Of a stretch of 64,000 nucleotides of DNA, positions 6,442 through 16,238 are shown piece by piece. Source of the stretch: Herbidospora cretacea (GTDB lineage Bacteria; Actinomycetota; Actinomycetes; Streptosporangiales; Streptosporangiaceae). Below the pieces are notes generated by a model that saw only the letters and a program-made list of their open reading frames with translations, made no database searches and was not told the origin of the DNA. How positions within the stretch are numbered: position 1 is the first letter of the stretch; every line of letters begins with the position of its first letter. The translations under genes and the position numbers were made by a program. Location of the stretch: positions 124,001 to 188,000 of the forward strand of contig NZ_BBXG01000003.1 of assembly GCF_001570605.1 (NCBI RefSeq). Direction: 5' to 3'.

Positions 6442-9012
6442 TCACCGGCGGTCGGGGCAGGCTCCCGCGCCGCATTCGAGCAGCACCCGGGTGACGCCGG
6501 TGACCGGGTCGACGCCGAGGATGTAGAGGGCCTTGCCGGGCGGGAACCGGCGGACCCGGTCGAGGGTGAGGTCGCCCGAGGCCCCGTTCACGCCCTCGAC
6601 GCCGGAGCTGGCCAGCCAGCTGTAGACGTCGTTGGCGGGGAAGTCCTCGTCGGGGAAGTTGAGGGCGAAGGCCTCGTCGGTGGCCCGGGACGCCACCAGC
6701 ACGGCGTCGTAGGCGCCCGCCGCGTCGCCGTTGGGCGGGTAGGCGGGCAGCCCTCGGCCGGTGAGGAAGCGGGTGAAGGCGGCGGCGAAGCGGTGCTGGG
6801 CCGACTGCCGCGTCGCCGAGGTGTCGAACCCCAGGTAGGAGAACTCCGCGAAGGGATAGCGCGAGGTCAGCGCGTCGGGGTCGTCGAGGAACCCGCTCGG
6901 CATGCTCTCGGTCAGGAAACCGATCCTGGTCCCGTCGTCCCGGACGCAGTCCTTCCGGTCGCCCATGGCGTCGAGCAGCTCCTGGAGGCGGCCGGACCGG
7001 CCGGCGTAGATCACGTGGCCGCCCGACTGGGCCACCCGCTCGCAGATGTTCTGGGCGGCGTCGCGCGCGCCGGGCCCCCGGCCGGTCTCCGCGTAGTCGA
7101 CGCGGTAGGTGCGGGCTGCCCCGTAGCGGGCCTCCAGCTTGCGGGCCAGGTCCACGCTGAAGATCTCGTCGTCGGGGTGGGCCACCACGATCGCCTTGGG
7201 TTCGCGCCGCACGTCGCGGGCGTAGGCCGTCATGATCCGCGCGATCGGCTCGTTCGACGGCGACACCTGGAAGTAGCGCAGCGGGGCCGCCGGTCCCTCC
7301 ACCATCGCGCTGCCCGTCACGGAGCTGCCGACCACCAGGATCTTCCCGTCGCTGAGCTCCGTCACGGCGGCGAGGGAGGCCGGGCGGCTCTGGGTGACGC
7401 CGACCACGGCGGAGACGCGGTCGCGCCCGGCCCGGTCGAGGATCGCCCTGGTGACCTCCGGCCCGTGGCCGAAGGCGTCGCCCGGGTTGGCGAGGAGGAT
7501 CCGCAGCGCCATGTGGCGCGCGCCGGGGCGGGCGTTGAGCTCGGCCACCGCGAGCAGCGCCCCGCGCAGGCTCTGGACTCCGTTCAGCGTGGTGTTCCCC
7601 GAACCGTCGCGGACCGTGACCGGGGCGTAGAAGACCACGGCGCGGTGGGGCTTGCCCGGGTCCACGGCCCGGTTGACGGACGCCGCCACCGCCTCCAGCT
7701 CACGCAGCCGGTCACCCCCGGCGCCGGGCGGGGCCAGGCTGCACTCGATGCCGTCGGTGACCCCGACGATCTCGCCGCCCGCGACCGGACGGCACGGGCG
7801 CGGGCCCCGCGGGACCACGGTCACCAGCGCCGCGACCGTCGCCACCGCGATCCAGGGGGCGAGCGACCAGACGTAGTCGCGGCGGGCGGCCTTCCGGGCG
7901 GGCACCCGGAGGCTGGTGGCGATCCACCGCTCGGCCGCGCCGTCGTCGGCCTCCCCGGACAGCGGGGCGACGTACACGGCCGACTCCCGCTGGACCGAGC
8001 CCGCGTAGAGCGCCTCGACCCGGTCGGCGACGTGGCCGGGGCCGAGCCGGACCGCGACCGACGGCTCCTCGGCCGCGAGCGCGCCCAGCACCAGCACCGC
8101 GGACGGCTCGCCCGCGCCGACGAGGCGCGCGTAGTCGTCGAGGAACTGCTTGCACGGCGAGCCCGTGCCGCCGACGGCGTCGAGCAGCACGACGAACGAC
8201 CACCGGCGGCGCCTCCGGTACACCCACAGCCGGGAGGGCCGGGCGGCCCGGTCGAGATCGCGCAGCAGCGCCGTCACCAGCACCTGCTGCACGGCCGCCT
8301 CGGCGGTCTCGGCCCCCCGCTCGGTGATCGCCGTCGCGACGTCGAGGAGCCGCCGGTCCTGTCTCCCCAGCATCCCGCCGACCCAGCGCAGCGACCGGTT
8401 CCGGGCCAGCCAGACGCCGTAGACCCAGCGGGGGAACGTCTCGGCCAGCACCAGGACGACCCCCGACAGGAAACCGACGAACGGCAGCTCGCCGGTCCTG
8501 GTGGCGACGGCGAGCGCCGTCCTCAGCCGGCGGCGGCGCTCCAGCAGCTTCGCGTAGAGCTCGTCCCGGACGATCGCGCGCCGGTCGCGCTGGCCGGGCC
8601 GGGCCTTGTCCAGCGACACCACGTCCTGGCACGTCTCCAGCAGGGGCAGCCGCAGCGTGCCCGCGCCCTCGGGCATCGAGTTCCGCAGCTTCTCGGCGAT
8701 GACGGAGACCAGGCCGACCCTCGGCTCGGCGTCGGCGTCGCCCACGTGGGCGTGCGGCACGACCCGGCCGCCCATCGCCGTGGCGAGCTCGCCGATCAGC
8801 CGTCCGGCCGCCGGGCCGTCGAGCAGCACGGCGGGCCGGTCGCTGGGCCGGGTGGCGATGGCGGCGGTGAACTGGGCGAGCAGGTAGTGGACCCCGCGTG
8901 GGAGCGGGGCGTGGGGGCGGCCGGGCACGGGGGAGTCCCCTCGGGTCGGAGGCGTCACTGATTGGGGTGTGGTGAATACGGAGGGTATCGGCCGTCCCAA
9001 CCTCGATGTCAT
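6442..9012 (-). CDS. Membrane protein with cytoplasmic domain and extracellular periplasmic-binding-like domain
   Basis: The protein has 856 residues in three parts. Residues 1 to about 385 form an arginine-rich, probably cytoplasmic region with no Walker A motif. A hydrophobic helix (APWIAVATVAALVTVVP) follows near residue 390. The C-terminal half resembles a type 1 periplasmic binding protein of the branched-chain amino acid kind: KPHRAVVFYAPVTV, an internal SAVVGVTQSRPA, KILVVGSSVTG and RYFQVSPSN. Several cysteines lie in the outer domain. Such receptor-like fusions occur in actinomycetes, but their role is not established. No ABC permease or ATPase is adjacent, so sensing is more likely than import. 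The stop lies 94 bases from the DeoR start. Confidence 0.65.
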   Translation of the reverse strand: MTSRLGRPIPSVFTTPQSVTPPTRGDSPVPGRPHAPLPRGVHYLLAQFTAAIATRPSDRPAVLLDGPAAGRLIGELATAMGGRVVPHAHVGDADAEPRVGLVSVIAEKLRNSMPEGAGTLRLPLLETCQDVVSLDKARPGQRDRRAIVRDELYAKLLERRRRLRTALAVATRTGELPFVGFLSGVVLVLAETFPRWVYGVWLARNRSLRWVGGMLGRQDRRLLDVATAITERGAETAEAAVQQVLVTALLRDLDRAARPSRLWVYRRRRRWSFVVLLDAVGGTGSPCKQFLDDYARLVGAGEPSAVLVLGALAAEEPSVAVRLGPGHVADRVEALYAGSVQRESAVYVAPLSGEADDGAAERWIATSLRVPARKAARRDYVWSLAPWIAVATVAALVTVVPRGPRPCRPVAGGEIVGVTDGIECSLAPPGAGGDRLRELEAVAASVNRAVDPGKPHRAVVFYAPVTVRDGSGNTTLNGVQSLRGALLAVAELNARPGARHMALRILLANPGDAFGHGPEVTRAILDRAGRDRVSAVVGVTQSRPASLAAVTELSDGKILVVGSSVTGSAMVEGPAAPLRYFQVSPSNEPIARIMTAYARDVRREPKAIVVAHPDDEIFSVDLARKLEARYGAARTYRVDYAETGRGPGARDAAQNICERVAQSGGHVIYAGRSGRLQELLDAMGDRKDCVRDDGTRIGFLTESMPSGFLDDPDALTSRYPFAEFSYLGFDTSATRQSAQHRFAAAFTRFLTGRGLPAYPPNGDAAGAYDAVLVASRATDEAFALNFPDEDFPANDVYSWLASSGVEGVNGASGDLTLDRVRRFPPGKALYILGVDPVTGVTRVLLECGAGACPDRR

Positions 9013-9126
9013 GGGATTTCCGTATCTCCGGTAACGGTTCGGCGACGGTCCGTGATCGCTTTTCGATGTGAAGCCGCTGTGTCACGATCGAGGCGGCACG
9101 ACTCGTATTTCGAAATCGGCGGCGGG

Positions 9127-10260
9127 GTGCCCGTGCACGAGACGCGTGACCTACTCGACCCGGAGACCAAGAGCGACAGCGTCCTCCAGGTCATCAGGGC
9201 CCTGATGTGCCGCTCCGGCCTGCGGACCGAGCTCGCGCGCCGCACCGGCCTGTCGATCGCGTCGGTCAGCACGGCGGTGAAGACCCTCCTGAGAGACGGC
9301 GTCGCCCAGGGCGGCAAGAAGGAACCGGTGGTCCTGCTGCCCGCGGCCGGGGTTGCCGTCGGGATACAGATCGGCACCCGCCGCGCGACGGTCTCCGCCC
9401 GGTTGCCTCACTGGCGCAGCGACCAGGCGCGGGTGAGCCGCCTCGATCTGGGCCTGCGCGACGGCGCGGGCTGGCTCGACGCGGCGGCGGACGCCGTCGC
9501 CGACCTCGTCGGCTCGATCGGCCGGGGGCCGGGCGACATCGCGACCATGGGCCTGGCGGTTCCGTGGGCGGTCGACCCGCGCGACCTGTCCCCCTCGCCG
9601 CCCGCGCCGTGGTTCGCCGCCCCCGACCTGCACCGGCACCTGGAGGCGCGATTCGGCCAGGTCAAGGTGGCCGTCGACACGGACGCCCGGCTGGGGGCCC
9701 TGCACGAGCAGACCTACCACCACCCGTACGAGACCCTGCTCTACGTCGAGGCCGCCGAGCACGTCCTCGGCGGGCTGGTCGTCGGGCCGAGGATGCTGCG
9801 CGGGGCCCTCGGCCGGGCCGGGGGCGTCGGCCACCACCCGGTCGAGCCGGGCGGTCTCGACTGCTGGTGTGGCGAGAGAGGCTGTTTGGAACGTTACATC
9901 AGCGTTCCCGCGGTGCTGGAGGGGATGTACGTCAGCGCCCGGGGCCGGGGAGAGGAGCCGCCCGCCTCCATCGGCGACCTCGTCGACCGGGCCGGCGGAG
10001 GGGACCCCGACTGCCTCTGGGCCCTCACCGTCGCCGCGAAGAGGCTGGTCCGCGCCCTGCGCGCGAGCTCGACGACCCTGGAGACGCAGGCCGTCGTCAT
10101 CGGCGGCCCGCTCGCCCCGGGCCTGCGCCTGGTCGCCGGGACCTGCGAGGACGAACTCCGGCGCTCGACCTGGACGAGGCACCTGACGGTCCGGTTCGCC
10201 GAACGGGACGCCGCCGCCCACGGCGCCCTGATTCTCGGGCTCATCGGCCATCTCCGCTGA
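9127..10260 (+). CDS. ROK-family transcriptional regulator
   Basis: The protein has about 377 residues. An N-terminal helix-turn-helix (RTELARRTGLSIASVSTAVK) is followed by a ROK domain with the zinc-binding motif CWCGERGCLE. Two features of sugar-kinase ROK proteins are altered. The N-terminal phosphate loop reads GIQIGTRRATV rather than DIGxT-type, and the ExGH motif reads GVGHH, so it is unlikely to phosphorylate sugar. Starts at GTG 9127 or GTG 9133 are both possible; the frame is open further upstream without a better site. It ends only 61 bases before the lasso precursor gene on the same strand, so it may control or be co-transcribed with that locus. Confidence 0.8.
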   Translation: MPVHETRDLLDPETKSDSVLQVIRALMCRSGLRTELARRTGLSIASVSTAVKTLLRDGVAQGGKKEPVVLLPAAGVAVGIQIGTRRATVSARLPHWRSDQARVSRLDLGLRDGAGWLDAAADAVADLVGSIGRGPGDIATMGLAVPWAVDPRDLSPSPPAPWFAAPDLHRHLEARFGQVKVAVDTDARLGALHEQTYHHPYETLLYVEAAEHVLGGLVVGPRMLRGALGRAGGVGHHPVEPGGLDCWCGERGCLERYISVPAVLEGMYVSARGRGEEPPASIGDLVDRAGGGDPDCLWALTVAAKRLVRALRASSTTLETQAVVIGGPLAPGLRLVAGTCEDELRRSTWTRHLTVRFAERDAAAHGALILGLIGHLR

Positions 10261-10321: not shown

Positions 10322-10465
10322 ATGTCAGCAGAAGGGCCCGAACTGCCGACGCCGGAGCCCGACTATGAGCCGCCTGCCCTCATCCGCCTCGGCCGGGTCA
10401 CCGATCTCTTCGGCGGCAACTCCTCCAGCGGCAACGCCGACGCCAACTCCGACTACTACTGGTGA
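10322..10465 (+). CDS. lasA: Lasso peptide precursor
   Basis: The gene encodes 47 residues. The ATG sits 6 bases after AGGTGG. The leader shows the YxxP recognition motif (YEPPALIRLG, Y15 to G24) bound by the RRE domain of lasso enzymes. The most likely core is GNSSSGNADANSDYYW (residues 32-47), where Gly1 and Asp9 would form the usual nine-residue macrolactam ring. The tail ANSDYYW carries bulky residues that could act as steric locks. The penultimate leader residue, normally Thr, is Phe30. No other acidic residue would give a standard 7-9 residue ring. Cyclase and protease genes follow directly, which makes the call strong although the gene is very short. Confidence 0.88.
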   Translation: MSAEGPELPTPEPDYEPPALIRLGRVTDLFGGNSSSGNADANSDYYW

Positions 10466-12131
10466 CTTCGGCCTGCTGATCCGGACCGTCGCGGGCCGCC
10501 TCGACGGCGGCGCGCACCTCCCCGGAGAGCCGGTATGGCCCGGCTCCGACGCGGTCAGGGTCTACGGATCGCCGCCGCCCGCCCTGTTCAGAGCCGTCGA
10601 CCGGGGACCGGAGAAGGTGCTCCTCCTCGGCCATGTCCTGGCCACCGAACGGGAACTGCGGACCGCCCCGGTGCGGGACCTGCCCGGCGCCTGCTCCTGC
10701 GTGACCGTCACCGCCGACCGGGTCGAGGTCCGCTCCGACCGCGCGGGCCAGTTCCCCCTGTTCTTCTCCGTACGCGGCGAGGAGACCCTCGTCGCCCACC
10801 ACGCCACCCTCCTGGCCGCGCTCCACTCCCGGCCCCCCGACCCCGTGGCGGCGGCCGTCCAGATCGCCTGCCCCCACGTGCTCCCGCTCACGATCGGCCG
10901 CTCCTACTTCACCGGCGTCGGGGTGCACGAGCCCCCGCCTCCCGCCGAGGGCCGTCCGGTGCGGGAGGTGCTCGTCGAGGCGGTGCGCGGGCGCGGAGCC
11001 GGGGTGACCTCCGACTTCAGCGGGGGGATCGACTCGACCTCGCTGGCCTTCCTCGCCGCCGCCCGCGGGCCGGTGGAGGCGGTCGTCTACCACCATCCCG
11101 GCGTGCCGACTGCCGACCTGGCGGAGGCCCGCCGGGCCGCCCGGCTGAGCGACCGGATCAGCCTCGACGTGGTGACCGGGGACCGCCGGACGCTGCCCTA
11201 CCAGGGCCTCGCCGAAGACCCGGAGTTGCGGCTCGACTGGCCCGCGTCCGGCCTGCTCGCCCGGCGGCGGGCGGCGCTGCGGCTCGACTGGGCCCGCGCG
11301 AAGGGCTCGCCCGCCCACCTGACCGGAGAGGGCGCCGACGCGCTGTTCCAGCCGCCGCCCTCCTCCCTCGCCGACCTGTTCAGACGCGGTGACCTGCGGA
11401 ACTGGGCCGGGCACAGCGCCCGGCTGGGGCGGATGCGGCAGGCCTCGGCGCTCGACCTGGCGGCGCGGGCGGCCCGGCTCGCGGTGACCTCCCACGGCCG
11501 GGCGCTGCGCGGGCTGAGCCGGTTCCTCGCCCGTCCGGTCGCCGCCCCGTCCCGGCCGGGGGAGGCGGTCGGCTGGTGGAGCGTGTCCGGTGAGGCCGCG
11601 GGCTGGCTGACCGCGCCGACCCGGGCCGCGCTCGCCGACCTCGCCGCCGACCGGGAGACGGCCCGGCGGATGCCCGAGGGCATCACGCCCGCCCGCCACG
11701 CCAGGCTCGTGGCGGTCCGCTCGGCCGCCGCCGCCCAGCGGTTCCTCCGCACGCTCGGCGACCGGCTCGGCGTCGCGGTGCACGCCCCCTACCTGGACGA
11801 CGCGGTGGTCGGCGCGGTCCTCGCCGGTCCGCAGCCGCGCCCCGACCCGGCCCGCGCCAAGCCCCAGTTGGCCGGCGCGCTGGCCGGGCTGGTCCCGGCC
11901 GACGTGCTGACCCGCCGCACCAAGGGCGCCTACCAGGCGGAGGAGTACGCGGGGGCCCGCGCCGCCCGGCCGGAGATCGCCGCGCTGCTGCGCGACTCGC
12001 GGCTCGCCGACCTGGGCGTGATCGACCCGGCCGCCGTCACGGCGACGCTGACCCGGCTCAACGCGGGGGCGCAGGTCCCCTTGAGCGCCCTCGGCAGGCT
12101 CGTCGCCCTTGAGGTGTGGCTGCGGCGATGA
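10365..12131 (+). CDS. lasC: Lasso peptide macrolactam synthetase (asparagine synthase-like); start uncertain
   Basis: This ATP-dependent cyclase activates the core Asp side chain as an acyl-adenylate and joins it to the core N-terminus. The asparagine-synthase PP-loop SGGIDSTSLAF is clear, as is the C-terminal catalytic region (LTGEGADALFQ and later APYLDDAVV, TKGAYQAE). Homology would be expected to begin near GDFGLLIRTVAG (about 10461), but no ATG, GTG or TTG exists there in frame. The options are ATG 10365, which places the first 101 bases inside lasA in another frame and adds a Pro/Thr-rich leader, or a rare CTG at 10473/10476. GTG 10617 would remove about 50 residues of the N-terminal domain. 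Confidence 0.85.
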   Translation: MSRLPSSASAGSPISSAATPPAATPTPTPTTTGDFGLLIRTVAGRLDGGAHLPGEPVWPGSDAVRVYGSPPPALFRAVDRGPEKVLLLGHVLATERELRTAPVRDLPGACSCVTVTADRVEVRSDRAGQFPLFFSVRGEETLVAHHATLLAALHSRPPDPVAAAVQIACPHVLPLTIGRSYFTGVGVHEPPPPAEGRPVREVLVEAVRGRGAGVTSDFSGGIDSTSLAFLAAARGPVEAVVYHHPGVPTADLAEARRAARLSDRISLDVVTGDRRTLPYQGLAEDPELRLDWPASGLLARRRAALRLDWARAKGSPAHLTGEGADALFQPPPSSLADLFRRGDLRNWAGHSARLGRMRQASALDLAARAARLAVTSHGRALRGLSRFLARPVAAPSRPGEAVGWWSVSGEAAGWLTAPTRAALADLAADRETARRMPEGITPARHARLVAVRSAAAAQRFLRTLGDRLGVAVHAPYLDDAVVGAVLAGPQPRPDPARAKPQLAGALAGLVPADVLTRRTKGAYQAEEYAGARAARPEIAALLRDSRLADLGVIDPAAVTATLTRLNAGAQVPLSALGRLVALEVWLRR

Positions 12132-12799
12132 TCTACCACCTGCTCGACGACGAGCGGGGCCTCGTGCTCGTCGACGTCCGCTCCGGTGAGTGCCACGTCC
12201 TCAACCCGCCCGGCCTGATGACCTGGAGCGTCCTCAGCACCGGCGGCAGCCGCGACGACGCGGTCACCGCGCTGGCCTCCCGCTATCCGGCCGTCCCCGG
12301 CGACCGGCTGCGCGCCGACGTCGACACCCTGCTGAACGACCTGCGGCAGGCGGGCCTGGTCCCCGGCGGCGTCGGGCCCGCCTCATCTCACGGTCCCGGA
12401 CCGGTGGCCGTGCCGATGGCGGCCGAAGCGCCGTGCCGTCCCGGGGTGAAGGCCGCGGGCTTCCTCGTGGTGGCCGCGCTCCTGCTGCTGCTCCCGTTCA
12501 AGGTCGCCCACCGGGTCGCCTCGGTCGCGGGCCGGGGGCGCAGGCCGCTCGACCCGATGCGGGCCCGGCGCATGGTGGCCGAGGTGAGCCGGGCCGCCGG
12601 GTGGTTCCCCGGCCGCGCGGCCTGCCTCCAGATCTCCCTGGCCACGGTGCTGTGGGCGGGTTTCCTGGGCCGCCGGGCCGACTGGTGTTTCGGGGTGCTG
12701 CCCGATCCGTATACCTTCCACGCCTGGATCGAGGCCGACGGCGAGCGCGTCACCACCGGCGACGAACCGTCCTACCACCGGCTGTGGCCCTTGCCGTAG
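12128..12799 (+). CDS. lasB: Fused lasso RRE and leader peptidase (B1-B2)
   Basis: This 223-residue protein combines both B functions. Residues 1 to about 80 form a PqqD-like RiPP recognition element (MIYHLLDDERGLVLVDVRSG and LLNDLRQAGLV) that binds the precursor leader. A hydrophobic segment follows (AAGFLVVAALLLLLPFKVA). The C-terminal part is the transglutaminase-like cysteine protease that removes the leader, with catalytic Cys in GRAACLQISLA and His in YTFHAWIEADGE. In most actinobacterial lasso loci B1 and B2 are separate genes. The ATG overlaps the cyclase stop (ATGA), which indicates coupling. Its 3' end overlaps the next, convergent gene by 28 bases. Confidence 0.9.
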   Translation: MIYHLLDDERGLVLVDVRSGECHVLNPPGLMTWSVLSTGGSRDDAVTALASRYPAVPGDRLRADVDTLLNDLRQAGLVPGGVGPASSHGPGPVAVPMAAEAPCRPGVKAAGFLVVAALLLLLPFKVAHRVASVAGRGRRPLDPMRARRMVAEVSRAAGWFPGRAACLQISLATVLWAGFLGRRADWCFGVLPDPYTFHAWIEADGERVTTGDEPSYHRLWPLP

Positions 12800-13832: not shown

Positions 13833-16238
13833 TCAGACCCCAGGGATCGCGGGCCCCGACCCCAGCTCCCGCAGCTCCCGCCGCGAGGCGATGTCGAGCC
13901 GCCGGAACACGTGGCCGAGATGGAACTCGACCGTCTTCACGCTGACGAACAGCCGCTGGGCGATCTCCCGGTTCGTCAGGCCGTCGCAGGCCAGGTCGGC
14001 GACCGCGCGCTCGGCCGGGGTGAGGTCGTCGAAGGGGCGCTCGGGTCCGTCGACGGCCAGGCCCGCGCCACGCGCCAGGTCCTGGTAGGCGCGGGCGCCG
14101 ATCCTCTCGAACTCCCGGTACGCCCCCCGCAACGCCCGCTCGGCCGCCTTCGTCCGCCCCCGGAGCAGCTGGCAGCGGCCCACGAGGAGGTCGATGACCG
14201 CCCGCTCCAGCGGGAACGGGGCGGCGTGGACGCGGGCCTGGGCGAAACAGGCGAGCGCCTGCTCGTGGTCGCCGTGGGCCATCGCGATGCGTCCCCGGGC
14301 CCGGAACAGGCCCAGGCCCTCGGGGAACTTCAGGTCGTCGCTGGGCTGGCCCAGCTGGGCGAGGGCCTCCTCGCGGACCGGCCCGAGCAGGTGGGTGCCG
14401 GGTTCCCCGGCGGGATAGATCCCGGCCAGCTCGCCGGAGGCCTGGAGCGCCCAGGAGGGGTCGTCGCGGGCGCGGGCGATGGCGATGGCCGCGGCGGCGG
14501 CGTACACGCGGGCGGCGGGGATGCCGGTGGCCCTCGCCCAGCGGGCCGACTCCTCGGCGTGGGCGCCCGCGCGGACCCATTCGCCCATCGCGGCCAGCGG
14601 GTAGGCGGCCTGGGCGTGCAGCATGGCGTAGTCCCAGATCCGGCCGTTGTCCTGGGCGTCGGCGACGGCGAGTTCGCTGTGCAGCACCGCCTCGGCCAGC
14701 TCCCCGCGCCGGTAGAGGGCCTCGCCGAGGAAGCCGAGGGCCTGGCCGACCCGCAGCGGCTCGCCGCCGGCCGCGCGCTGGACGGCCAGCCGCAGGTCGG
14801 CGCAGGCGCCGTCGAGGTCGTCGCGCCAGAGGCGGATCATGCCGCGCGCCACCAGGCCGTCGAGCCCGGCCGGGGCGCCGGGGGCGTCGGCGGAGGCCAG
14901 GAACTCCAGCGCCTCGGGGGCCCGCCCGGCGACGGCCAGGCCCAGCGCCCTGGCGAACCAGGCGAAGGCGGCCACCCAGGGTTCCCTGGCGCCGTCCACC
15001 GCCCGGCCGCCGAAGGTGATCATGTCGTCGTAGGAGACGGTGATCACGCCGATGATGGCGAGCTGGGTGCTGATCCGGGCGTCGAGGTCGTCCGGGCCCT
15101 CCTCGGCGGCGGCCAGCGCGTCGAGGAGCACGGTCCGCGCCTCGGCCACCTGGCCCATGAGGAGGGTCTGGTAGCCGTGGACGTAACGGGCCCATCTGCC
15201 GGGGTCGGCGGCCAGCCAGTCGCGCAGGGGCAGCGTCCGGGCCAGGTCGCCGGCCACGAGCATCGCCTCCAGCGCGACCAGCCGGAACCGCCGGTCCCGC
15301 GTCAGCGGCAGCGACCCGGCCAGCAGCACGGCCGCCTCCTGGGTGCGGGAGTCGCCCTGCAACCGGGCCGCCTCCAGGGCGATCTCGGCCGCGAGGGCCT
15401 CGTCGGGCGGGTCGGCGGCGGCGATCCGGTGCCGCAGCGAGGAGTGCCGGGCGTGCAGCGACTTCCGCCGGGCGGCGGGGATGTCGTGGTAGACGACGCC
15501 GCGCACCAGGGCGCTGGTGAACTCGAGCCCCTGCCCGGTCCGCCGCACCAGCCCGGTGGCGACCGCCTCGGCGCAGTCGGCGGGGAAGCGGCGCCCGAGC
15601 ACCGCGCCGTCCTCCAGCAGCGTCCTGACCTCGGGGGAGCACTCCCGCAGCCGTTCGCGCACGGCCGTCGCGAACGAGCGGGGGGCGGGCAGCGGCCCCG
15701 AGCCGTAGGCGAGGGTGTGCGGGTCGAGTTCGTCGAGCAGGTGGCGGGCGTGCAGGGGATGGCCGCCGGTGTGGTCGTGCAGCCGGGCGGCCCCGGCGGC
15801 CGACAGCTCCGGATGCCCGGTGAGCGCGGCCAGCCGGATCAGGTCCTCGGGCGGCAGCCCCGTCAGCACGACGCGGTCGCCGAGCAGCCGCCGCCAGGCG
15901 TCGCCCAGGGCGTCGAGGTCGCCGATGACGACGACGAGCACGTCCGGCCGCCGGCGGATCGCCAGCCGCAGCGCGGTGAGCTGGTCGCGGTCGGCCCAGT
16001 GGGCGTCGTCGACCACCACCACGCAGTCGTGGAAGACTGGTTCGGGGCCCTCCCAGGCGAGCTCCGGTTCGTGTTCGTCGGCGGCGGCCCAGAAGACGGG
16101 CCGCTCCTGCGCCGCGGCGAACCGGCGGGCCAGCGCCGTCTTGCCGACGCCCGGTTCGCCGTCGATCCCGACCACGTGGGCCTTCGTGGCCGCCAGCCAG
16201 GCGAGTTCCGCCTCACGCCCGACGAAGATCTCCCGCAT
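13833..16238 (-). CDS. LuxR-type regulator with ATPase domain (LAL-like)
   Basis: This 801-residue protein begins with an AAA/STAND ATPase: Walker A GEPGVGKTALA near residue 30 and Walker B CVVVVDDAHWADRD. A long helical repeat region follows, and a C-terminal LuxR helix-turn-helix closes it (LTPAERAVADLACDGLTNRE, then IAQRLFVSVKTVEFHLGHVF). Proteins of this design are large ATP-dependent activators, often of secondary metabolism or sugar use (MalT/LAL group). It lies 41 bases upstream of the secreted-protein gene on the same strand and may activate it. Targets cannot be deduced. Confidence 0.9.
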   Translation of the reverse strand: MREIFVGREAELAWLAATKAHVVGIDGEPGVGKTALARRFAAAQERPVFWAAADEHEPELAWEGPEPVFHDCVVVVDDAHWADRDQLTALRLAIRRRPDVLVVVIGDLDALGDAWRRLLGDRVVLTGLPPEDLIRLAALTGHPELSAAGAARLHDHTGGHPLHARHLLDELDPHTLAYGSGPLPAPRSFATAVRERLRECSPEVRTLLEDGAVLGRRFPADCAEAVATGLVRRTGQGLEFTSALVRGVVYHDIPAARRKSLHARHSSLRHRIAAADPPDEALAAEIALEAARLQGDSRTQEAAVLLAGSLPLTRDRRFRLVALEAMLVAGDLARTLPLRDWLAADPGRWARYVHGYQTLLMGQVAEARTVLLDALAAAEEGPDDLDARISTQLAIIGVITVSYDDMITFGGRAVDGAREPWVAAFAWFARALGLAVAGRAPEALEFLASADAPGAPAGLDGLVARGMIRLWRDDLDGACADLRLAVQRAAGGEPLRVGQALGFLGEALYRRGELAEAVLHSELAVADAQDNGRIWDYAMLHAQAAYPLAAMGEWVRAGAHAEESARWARATGIPAARVYAAAAAIAIARARDDPSWALQASGELAGIYPAGEPGTHLLGPVREEALAQLGQPSDDLKFPEGLGLFRARGRIAMAHGDHEQALACFAQARVHAAPFPLERAVIDLLVGRCQLLRGRTKAAERALRGAYREFERIGARAYQDLARGAGLAVDGPERPFDDLTPAERAVADLACDGLTNREIAQRLFVSVKTVEFHLGHVFRRLDIASRRELRELGSGPAIPGV

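Follow-up and report, generated by a model that had tools for sequence, protein, structure and literature searches.

A ROK-linked lasso peptide locus in Herbidospora cretacea with a Gly6 core, a fused B protein and a probable cyclase start inside the precursor gene

The 64,000-nucleotide stretch of Herbidospora cretacea DNA analysed here (contig NZ_BBXG01000003.1, positions 124,001 to 188,000 of the forward strand; hereafter the window) comes from a genome of 8.28 Mb and carries, on its forward strand, a lasso peptide locus consisting of a ROK-family regulator, a precursor A, a cyclase C and a fused peptidase B. The regulator occupies 8962–10260, with an open frame from TTG 8962; its true start is uncertain and probably lies later, e.g., at GTG 9127 or 9133. 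It combines an N-terminal winged-helix region with a C-terminal ROK domain that matches PF00480 at 87.9 bits (cut-off 22.9), and the match of its N-terminal helix-turn-helix region is weaker (HTH_24, 21.0 versus a cut-off of 21.9). The precursor gene at 10322–10465 starts with ATG and encodes 47 residues, as recognized from the open reading frame and its homologues. The cyclase gene is assigned to 10365–12131 and would encode 588 residues if ATG 10365 is the start; the cyclase domain begins at about 10464, and the gene overlaps that of the precursor in another frame. Finally, B at 12128–12799 starts at ATG 12128, in an ATGA overlap with C, and joins a PqqD-like RRE domain to a transglutaminase-like cysteine protease.

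The enzymes are assigned by profile matches. The C frame scores 77.1 bits with PF00733 Asn_synthase (cut-off 21), and B scores 48.6 with PF05402 PqqD (cut-off 23.4), 67.9 bits with PF13471 Transglut_core3 (cut-off 26) and 74.2 with the NCBIfam model NF033537 lasso_biosyn_B2 (cut-off 33), both B domains lying in the single open reading frame that ends at 12799. This is in agreement with the preliminary description of the locus, which had read a 47-residue precursor frame followed by a cyclase and a fused RRE-protease. The RRE part of B furthermore matches the TfuB1 structure 6jx3_B weakly (E 0.047), and a search of solved structures with C returned no match at E 0.001. Two scores speak against the lasso assignment: precursor A falls narrowly short of the lasso_leader_L3 cut-off (18.5 versus 19), and C reaches 244 bits with NF033561, the albusnodin/ikarugamycin macrolactam cyclase model, which is the best named NCBIfam model for C, under its curated cut-off of 300. 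Judged from its genes and motifs, the locus very probably directs the biosynthesis of a lasso peptide.

The leader (10322–10414) contains Y15, P18 and L20, and with the core beginning at G32 these residues form the YxxPxL motif Y(-17)xxP(-14)xL(-12), in the leader positions -17 to -12 reported for it (PMC10368454), followed by Phe(-2)-Gly(-1). Gly32 is the sole choice of residue 1 that gives the -17 spacing, and Asp then falls at core position 9. Two other boundaries were rejected, i.e., Gly31 as core start, because Asp would fall at position 10, and a boundary with T27 as residue -2, because no acid would occupy ring positions 7–9. The core, GNSSSGNADANSDYYW, is thus encoded by 10415–10462 and has a predicted Gly1–Asp9 isopeptide and a 7-residue tail.

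Relatives were collected with the cyclase and with the precursor. A search of 84,980 species genomes with cyclase C yielded eight loci, six in Herbidospora and one each in Nonomuraea cavernae and [Actinomadura] parvosata, from which precursor profiles were first built. Profile searches found the precursor in 27 of 341 genomes from the family to which the window belongs and in 26 of 345 at order level, where the genomes were for the most part the same ones. A sample across the class gave 7 of 394, a second family 12 of 297 and a large genus within that second family, at E 1e-6, 4 of 323. All 7 genomes from the same genus as the window carry the precursor, as do 18 outside it, and C and then B lie downstream at every one of the 25, with the qualification that in locus L153 only the RRE part of B is visible before the contig ends. 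Alignment on the Y(-17)xxP ruler of the loci that were carried forward gave two main groups, named here Gly6 and DTAD after their cores. The Gly6 group comprises 25 loci in 25 genomes, including the window (12 in the window's family and 13 in the second family), and the DTAD group comprises 16 loci. Loci L057, L111 and L116 match neither core pattern and stand outside both counts, as do precursor matches for which flanks were not refetched (e.g., G317 and G630). Viral contigs, searched with an exact DNA pattern, and plasmids, searched with tblastn, gave no match.

Gly6 cores follow the pattern G1-x4-G6-x2-D9-A10-N11-(S/A)12-x13-(Y/F)14-Y15-(W/Y)16, with 15 distinct cores among the 25 loci and G1, G6, D9, A10, N11 and Y15 invariant; DTAD cores follow G1-x4-D6-T7-A8-D9, mostly continued by x-N-x-x-x-Y. 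The window core has one other acid, at position 13, and in the 18 loci outside the genus this residue is Gln (16) or His (2). Because all 25 loci keep G1 and D9 while the acid at position 13 is replaced outside the genus, the comparison supports, short of proof, the predicted Gly1–Asp9 isopeptide in the window peptide. The leader spacing, the profile matches and the same invariance support the YxxP motif, the core boundary and the Gly1–Asp9 ring that had been proposed from the window alone. Within the genus the core is identical in all seven copies: 7 of its 16 codons vary synonymously and none changes the residue, and 17 leader codons show three synonymous and two residue changes. A chance open reading frame is ruled out by the conservation in 25 genomes together with this residue-preserving change in the core. 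Among the Gly6 cores, that of L155, GSSPSGCADANAQYYY, has Cys in the ring and a C-terminal Tyr instead of Trp, and that of L154 is the same except for Ser in place of Cys.

At leader position -2 the window has Phe in place of the usual Thr. The preliminary description regarded this as exceptional; the residue is real but stands out less than it had seemed to, since the 25 Gly6 loci have Thr (12), Phe (8), Ala (3) or Val (2) and the 16 DTAD loci Thr (9), Ile (6) or Val (1). Phe(-2) is genuine, one of several replacements and a family trait; within this set it occurs in Herbidospora and N. cavernae only. In this respect the preliminary description, right on the identity of the locus, somewhat over-read the oddity of the precursor. 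Precursors with Ile(-2) or Val(-2) are described for Bradymonas and others in PMC10368454, whose authors report that each cluster of this kind that they found also encodes a kinase or phosphotransferase. They resemble the Gly6 loci in that Thr(-2) is replaced by a hydrophobic residue; however, BsfB1 and BsfB2 are split, whereas the Gly6 loci combine Phe, Val or Ala at -2 with a fused B. A point against the explanation of the locus proposed below is that the literature searched, i.e., open-licence main texts including the relevant part of PMC10368454, yielded no characterized precedent for Phe(-2).

A ROK gene lies directly upstream of the precursor gene, on the same strand, in every Gly6 locus, i.e., in the 22 of 22 loci first examined and in the 3 of 3 that were fetched after the pattern had been seen (25/25), and no ROK match lies upstream in any of the 16 DTAD loci. 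The loci had been collected by cyclase or precursor, and ROK was not a selection criterion. The upstream gene of the DTAD locus L052 belongs to a different family, HTH_31/DUF5753; of 14 DTAD loci in the comparison, 8 have this family immediately upstream. Families shared around the Gly6 loci were compared after five Herbidospora loci that are near-identical had been set aside, which left 17 of the 22, for open reading frames of at least 100 residues shared by at least 30% of the loci. ROK, C and fused B are the only same-strand families shared at this level; the shared opposite-strand families overlie ROK, C and B and look like mirror frames. No family beyond these three was shared, in a comparison in which kinases as such were not searched for. 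An acetyltransferase belongs to albusnodin; in this the Gly6 loci differ, as no acetyltransferase is among the families shared by the 17. The preliminary description had called the locus compact, which is incomplete in that the upstream ROK gene is part of it and the cyclase gene probably overlaps that of the precursor.

The linked ROK proteins resemble NagC, Mlc and RokB in having a helix-turn-helix region and a ROK domain with the C-x-C-G-x2-G-C motif, which is kept in all 25, but they form a separate group tied to lasso genes and score far under the Mlc and NagC equivalog cut-offs. In a quick tree the 25 are split by a branch from the 29 other ROK proteins of the window's genome (Shimodaira–Hasegawa-like approximate likelihood ratio test, SH-aLRT, 100), and the tree repeats main branches of the cyclase tree, including the joining of L106 and L110 to the other family's side. 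The DND and E-(I/L)-G-H residues, which we take to be the ligand site, are kept in 17/17 linked ROK proteins outside Herbidospora and N. cavernae. The case for a regulator dedicated to the lasso module is weakened by three points: the unlinked ROK proteins were sampled from the window's genome only; exact 6-base palindromes in 14 ROK–A intergenic regions revealed no shared operator; and in 8/8 Herbidospora and N. cavernae proteins D(T/A)D and (G/S)-(V/I)-G-H replace the putative ligand residues. Ligand control may therefore differ in that branch, where ROK may have lost or changed its small-molecule ligand. We consider ROK likely to be a dedicated regulator of the module.

The linkage bears on a competing explanation in which the product is an ordinary antimicrobial lasso peptide and its ROK neighbour is conserved but passive, or is a general carbon-catabolite regulator. 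Antimicrobial activity is reported to be common among lasso peptides (PMC8498205), ROK proteins are numerous, with 30 matches in the window genome, and the ROK regulator RokB is described as affecting novobiocin production (PMC4856308). A passive neighbour is, however, opposed by the linkage in 25/25 loci and by the common ROK group, and an antimicrobial role by a core that hardly varies over 25 loci from two families and by the finding that no exporter or immunity family reaches the 30% threshold in the 17 loci, so that we regard this explanation as unlikely. The near constancy of the core from genus to genus, and the lack of any exporter or immunity family found conserved in the neighbourhood, make a conserved signal, or a ligand of a specific target, likelier as the product than an antibiotic that evolves fast; a conserved non-antibiotic role of the peptide is put forward as a tentative proposal.

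The start of C is a separate matter. In the seven Herbidospora copies and N. cavernae no ATG, GTG or TTG stands in the C frame at the precursor stop, and in all eight the nearest upstream canonical start is an ATG at -98 nucleotides (10365 in the window), which consists of the Tyr(-17) codon TAT and the G of the next codon. A GGAG stands 7 nucleotides before this ATG in 8/8 loci; in the window it lies at 10354–10357 on the forward strand, within the Pro-Glu codons of the leader, and is a candidate ribosome-binding site for C. In L009 the internal ATG is the only canonical start in the open frame, and in three other Gly6 loci (L105, L106 and L110) a GTG overlaps the precursor stop. C probably starts at the internal ATG, overlapping A by about 100 bases in a different frame, and would thereby gain an N-terminal extension of ~33 residues rich in Ser, Pro, Ala and Thr. 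The simplest reading would be that the frame changed at the 5′ end of C in a common ancestor and that this was bypassed by the internal start. Several observations tell against it. Further upstream starts exist in seven of the eight loci, i.e., a GTG 30 nucleotides further upstream in N. cavernae and, in the other Herbidospora, only starts at least 293 nucleotides upstream, before the precursor gene; the extension lacks sequence conservation, the C frame being free to change in the overlap; and TAT is not a rare codon (29 of 106 Tyr codons in the C and B genes). The last two points leave selection for the internal ATG short of proof.

Alternatively, re-initiation at the precursor stop would let C start at a non-canonical CTG, ATT or ATC: where core codons vary synonymously, the C frame that overlaps them shows no conservation, a CTG stands shortly behind the precursor stop in the seven Herbidospora copies, and L016 has an additional ATG at +22, just within the domain. 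N. cavernae, however, has CTC CTC at the corresponding codons and its first CTG three codons further on, and the ATG and its GGAG are present in 8/8 loci, which makes a non-canonical start doubtful. A sequencing error at the A–C junction is ruled out by the same frame in eight genomes, and inspection by eye showed no slippery site shared by the copies that would allow ribosomal frameshifting at the GTG in TGGTGA. As a separate observation, compared with window positions 10464–12131 the Herbidospora cyclases (L010–L012, L014 and L016) have a length-variable insert right before an 'LDWPAPG' segment, in some of them with what by eye are imperfect repeats of this segment; the window copy is short.

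The DTAD loci bear the motif of the lassimiditides, in which DTAD occupies core positions 6–9, Asp6 is aspartimidylated by a PIMT homologue and Asp9 closes the ring (PMC13001092, PMC10787088). Their cyclases are related to those of the Gly6 loci and their cores mostly have the same length of 16 residues. Like cellulonodin-2 and lihuanodin (PMC13001092), the window peptide has a ring closed, as predicted, by Asp9. It differs from the lassimiditides in having Gly6 (GNAD) and not Asp6, hence no D(T/S)AD motif, with Gly6 in 25/25 loci; the window locus differs from the DTAD loci in having no PIMT-like methyltransferase in the stretch examined, a fused B and a ROK regulator. Membership of the window peptide in the lassimiditides is ruled out, there being no Asp6 and no PIMT found.

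The methyltransferase and B architecture divide the two groups. With phmmer at E 1e-3, a PIMT-like methyltransferase was detected in 14 of 16 DTAD loci and in none of the 25 Gly6 loci (the downstream side of L153 lies beyond the contig end), and a whole-genome PF01135 search agrees with this distribution among the matches listed. The two DTAD precursors without a PIMT match are L049, with no cyclase match at E 1e-3, and L056, with a partial cyclase match. B is fused, i.e., RRE and protease in one open reading frame, in 24 of 25 Gly6 loci, the 25th (L153) running off its contig, and split in 12/12 DTAD loci in which both domains were detected, one or both being undetected in 4 of 16. Split B proteins are also described for the actinobacterial lariatin, sviceucin and streptomonomicin clusters (PMC5067487). 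In the cyclase tree, from which L049, L055, L056 and L116 were left out (L049 and L056 being retained in the DTAD counts), a branch (98/97) separates the 25 Gly6 cyclases from the others, the root being arbitrary, and 12 of 13 DTAD cyclases form another group (98/99). The remaining one, L112, joins L111, which is flagged as a possible long-branch artefact; as it stands, the DTAD cyclases do not occupy one side of a branch, which blurs the two-group picture. Three side observations concern these loci: L049 (G114) and L056 (G101) are possibly interrupted lassimiditide loci, and L057 (G025:C44), with a different precursor of core GQYASEHADDGDGAGYWSQPV that is flanked on either side by PIMT-like matches, may represent a further lasso type associated with a methyltransferase.

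These data also address an explanation of the window peptide as an unmodified lassimiditide that has lost the methyltransferase and Asp6 and is otherwise exactly like cellulonodin-2 or lihuanodin. Core length and ring position are as in most DTAD loci, A8 and N11 occur in many of them, and the cyclases are related; yet cyclase, regulator and B architecture (24 fused and 0 split versus 0 fused and 12 split) are group-specific, no intermediate was seen, and the tree is unrooted, so that loss and ancestral absence of the methyltransferase are not separable. We consider such a loss rather improbable. A silent or decaying locus in Herbidospora, with the ROK ligand residues and Thr(-2) being lost, would fit the changed ligand residues and Phe(-2) but is very improbable, given that the locus is intact in all seven genomes of the genus, that synonymous drift has left the residues of the core as they were and that the C and B domains are full length.

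A literature search with core fragments gave one relevant paper (PMC6522549), in which an unknown lasso peptide of Streptomyces fildesensis So13.3 with the ring GSSSSGNAD was printed in 2019 as a prediction. This ring is identical to those of L102 and L103 of the Gly6 group and differs from GNSSSGNAD of the window; the passage on the cluster lists other regulators and no ROK gene. The earlier view that the core is unlike characterized lasso peptides holds within the literature searched, but a sister ring was already in print as a prediction. No product or function was found there for a Gly6-type lasso peptide, nor a link between lasso peptides and ROK proteins, the passages of PMC10293955 and PMC13381572 that name both being unrelated co-mentions. 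The window locus defines a Gly6 subfamily with fused B and upstream ROK; the subfamily, the ROK linkage and the probable cyclase overlap are its new content. Downstream of the lasso genes, on the opposite strand (13836–16238), lies a large LuxR-type regulator with AAA_16 and GerE domains, a family not shared among the 17 Gly6 loci in the comparison.

Gene content, conservation, phylogeny and spacing mark ROK, A, C and B as a four-gene lasso module; with the chemistry, regulation, function and C start that we infer for it, this is, with good confidence, the best explanation of the locus. In the proposed mechanism, the RRE half of B would bind the leader at Y(-17)/P(-14)/L(-12), and the cysteine-protease half, with a -2 pocket shifted to accept Phe, would cut after Gly(-1). 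C would activate Asp9 with ATP and join it to Gly1 around the threaded tail, with Tyr14-Tyr15-Trp16 as putative plugs. This would yield a lasso of 16 residues, nine in the ring and seven in the tail, without further tailoring; if nothing is added, the linear core (1706.645) less one water gives an expected [M+H]+ of 1689.641 and [M+2H]2+ of 845.324. ROK would control transcription as a dedicated regulator, whose ancestral ligand was probably sugar-like, and in the genus Herbidospora C would probably be translated from the ATG inside the precursor gene.

Many lasso peptides are not known to have a natural role. The boldest combination of the claims made here, i.e., a patchy Actinomycetota ROK-lasso module whose near-invariant peptide is a signal or specific ligand and not an antibiotic, whose ROK reads the peptide or a linked sugar and whose cyclase was re-started inside the recognition motif in Herbidospora, is improbable as a conjunction. 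If true, a single stretch of DNA would encode the leader-binding motif, the core peptide and the cyclase N-terminus. The Gly6 group constitutes a natural methyltransferase-free comparison for the aspartimide-bearing lassimiditides, and Phe, Val and Ala at position -2 hint at natural proteases whose specificity is altered, which would be of use in lasso engineering. The near-fixed core and its co-inherited regulator provide a handle for probing the ROK ligand and the role of the peptide together.

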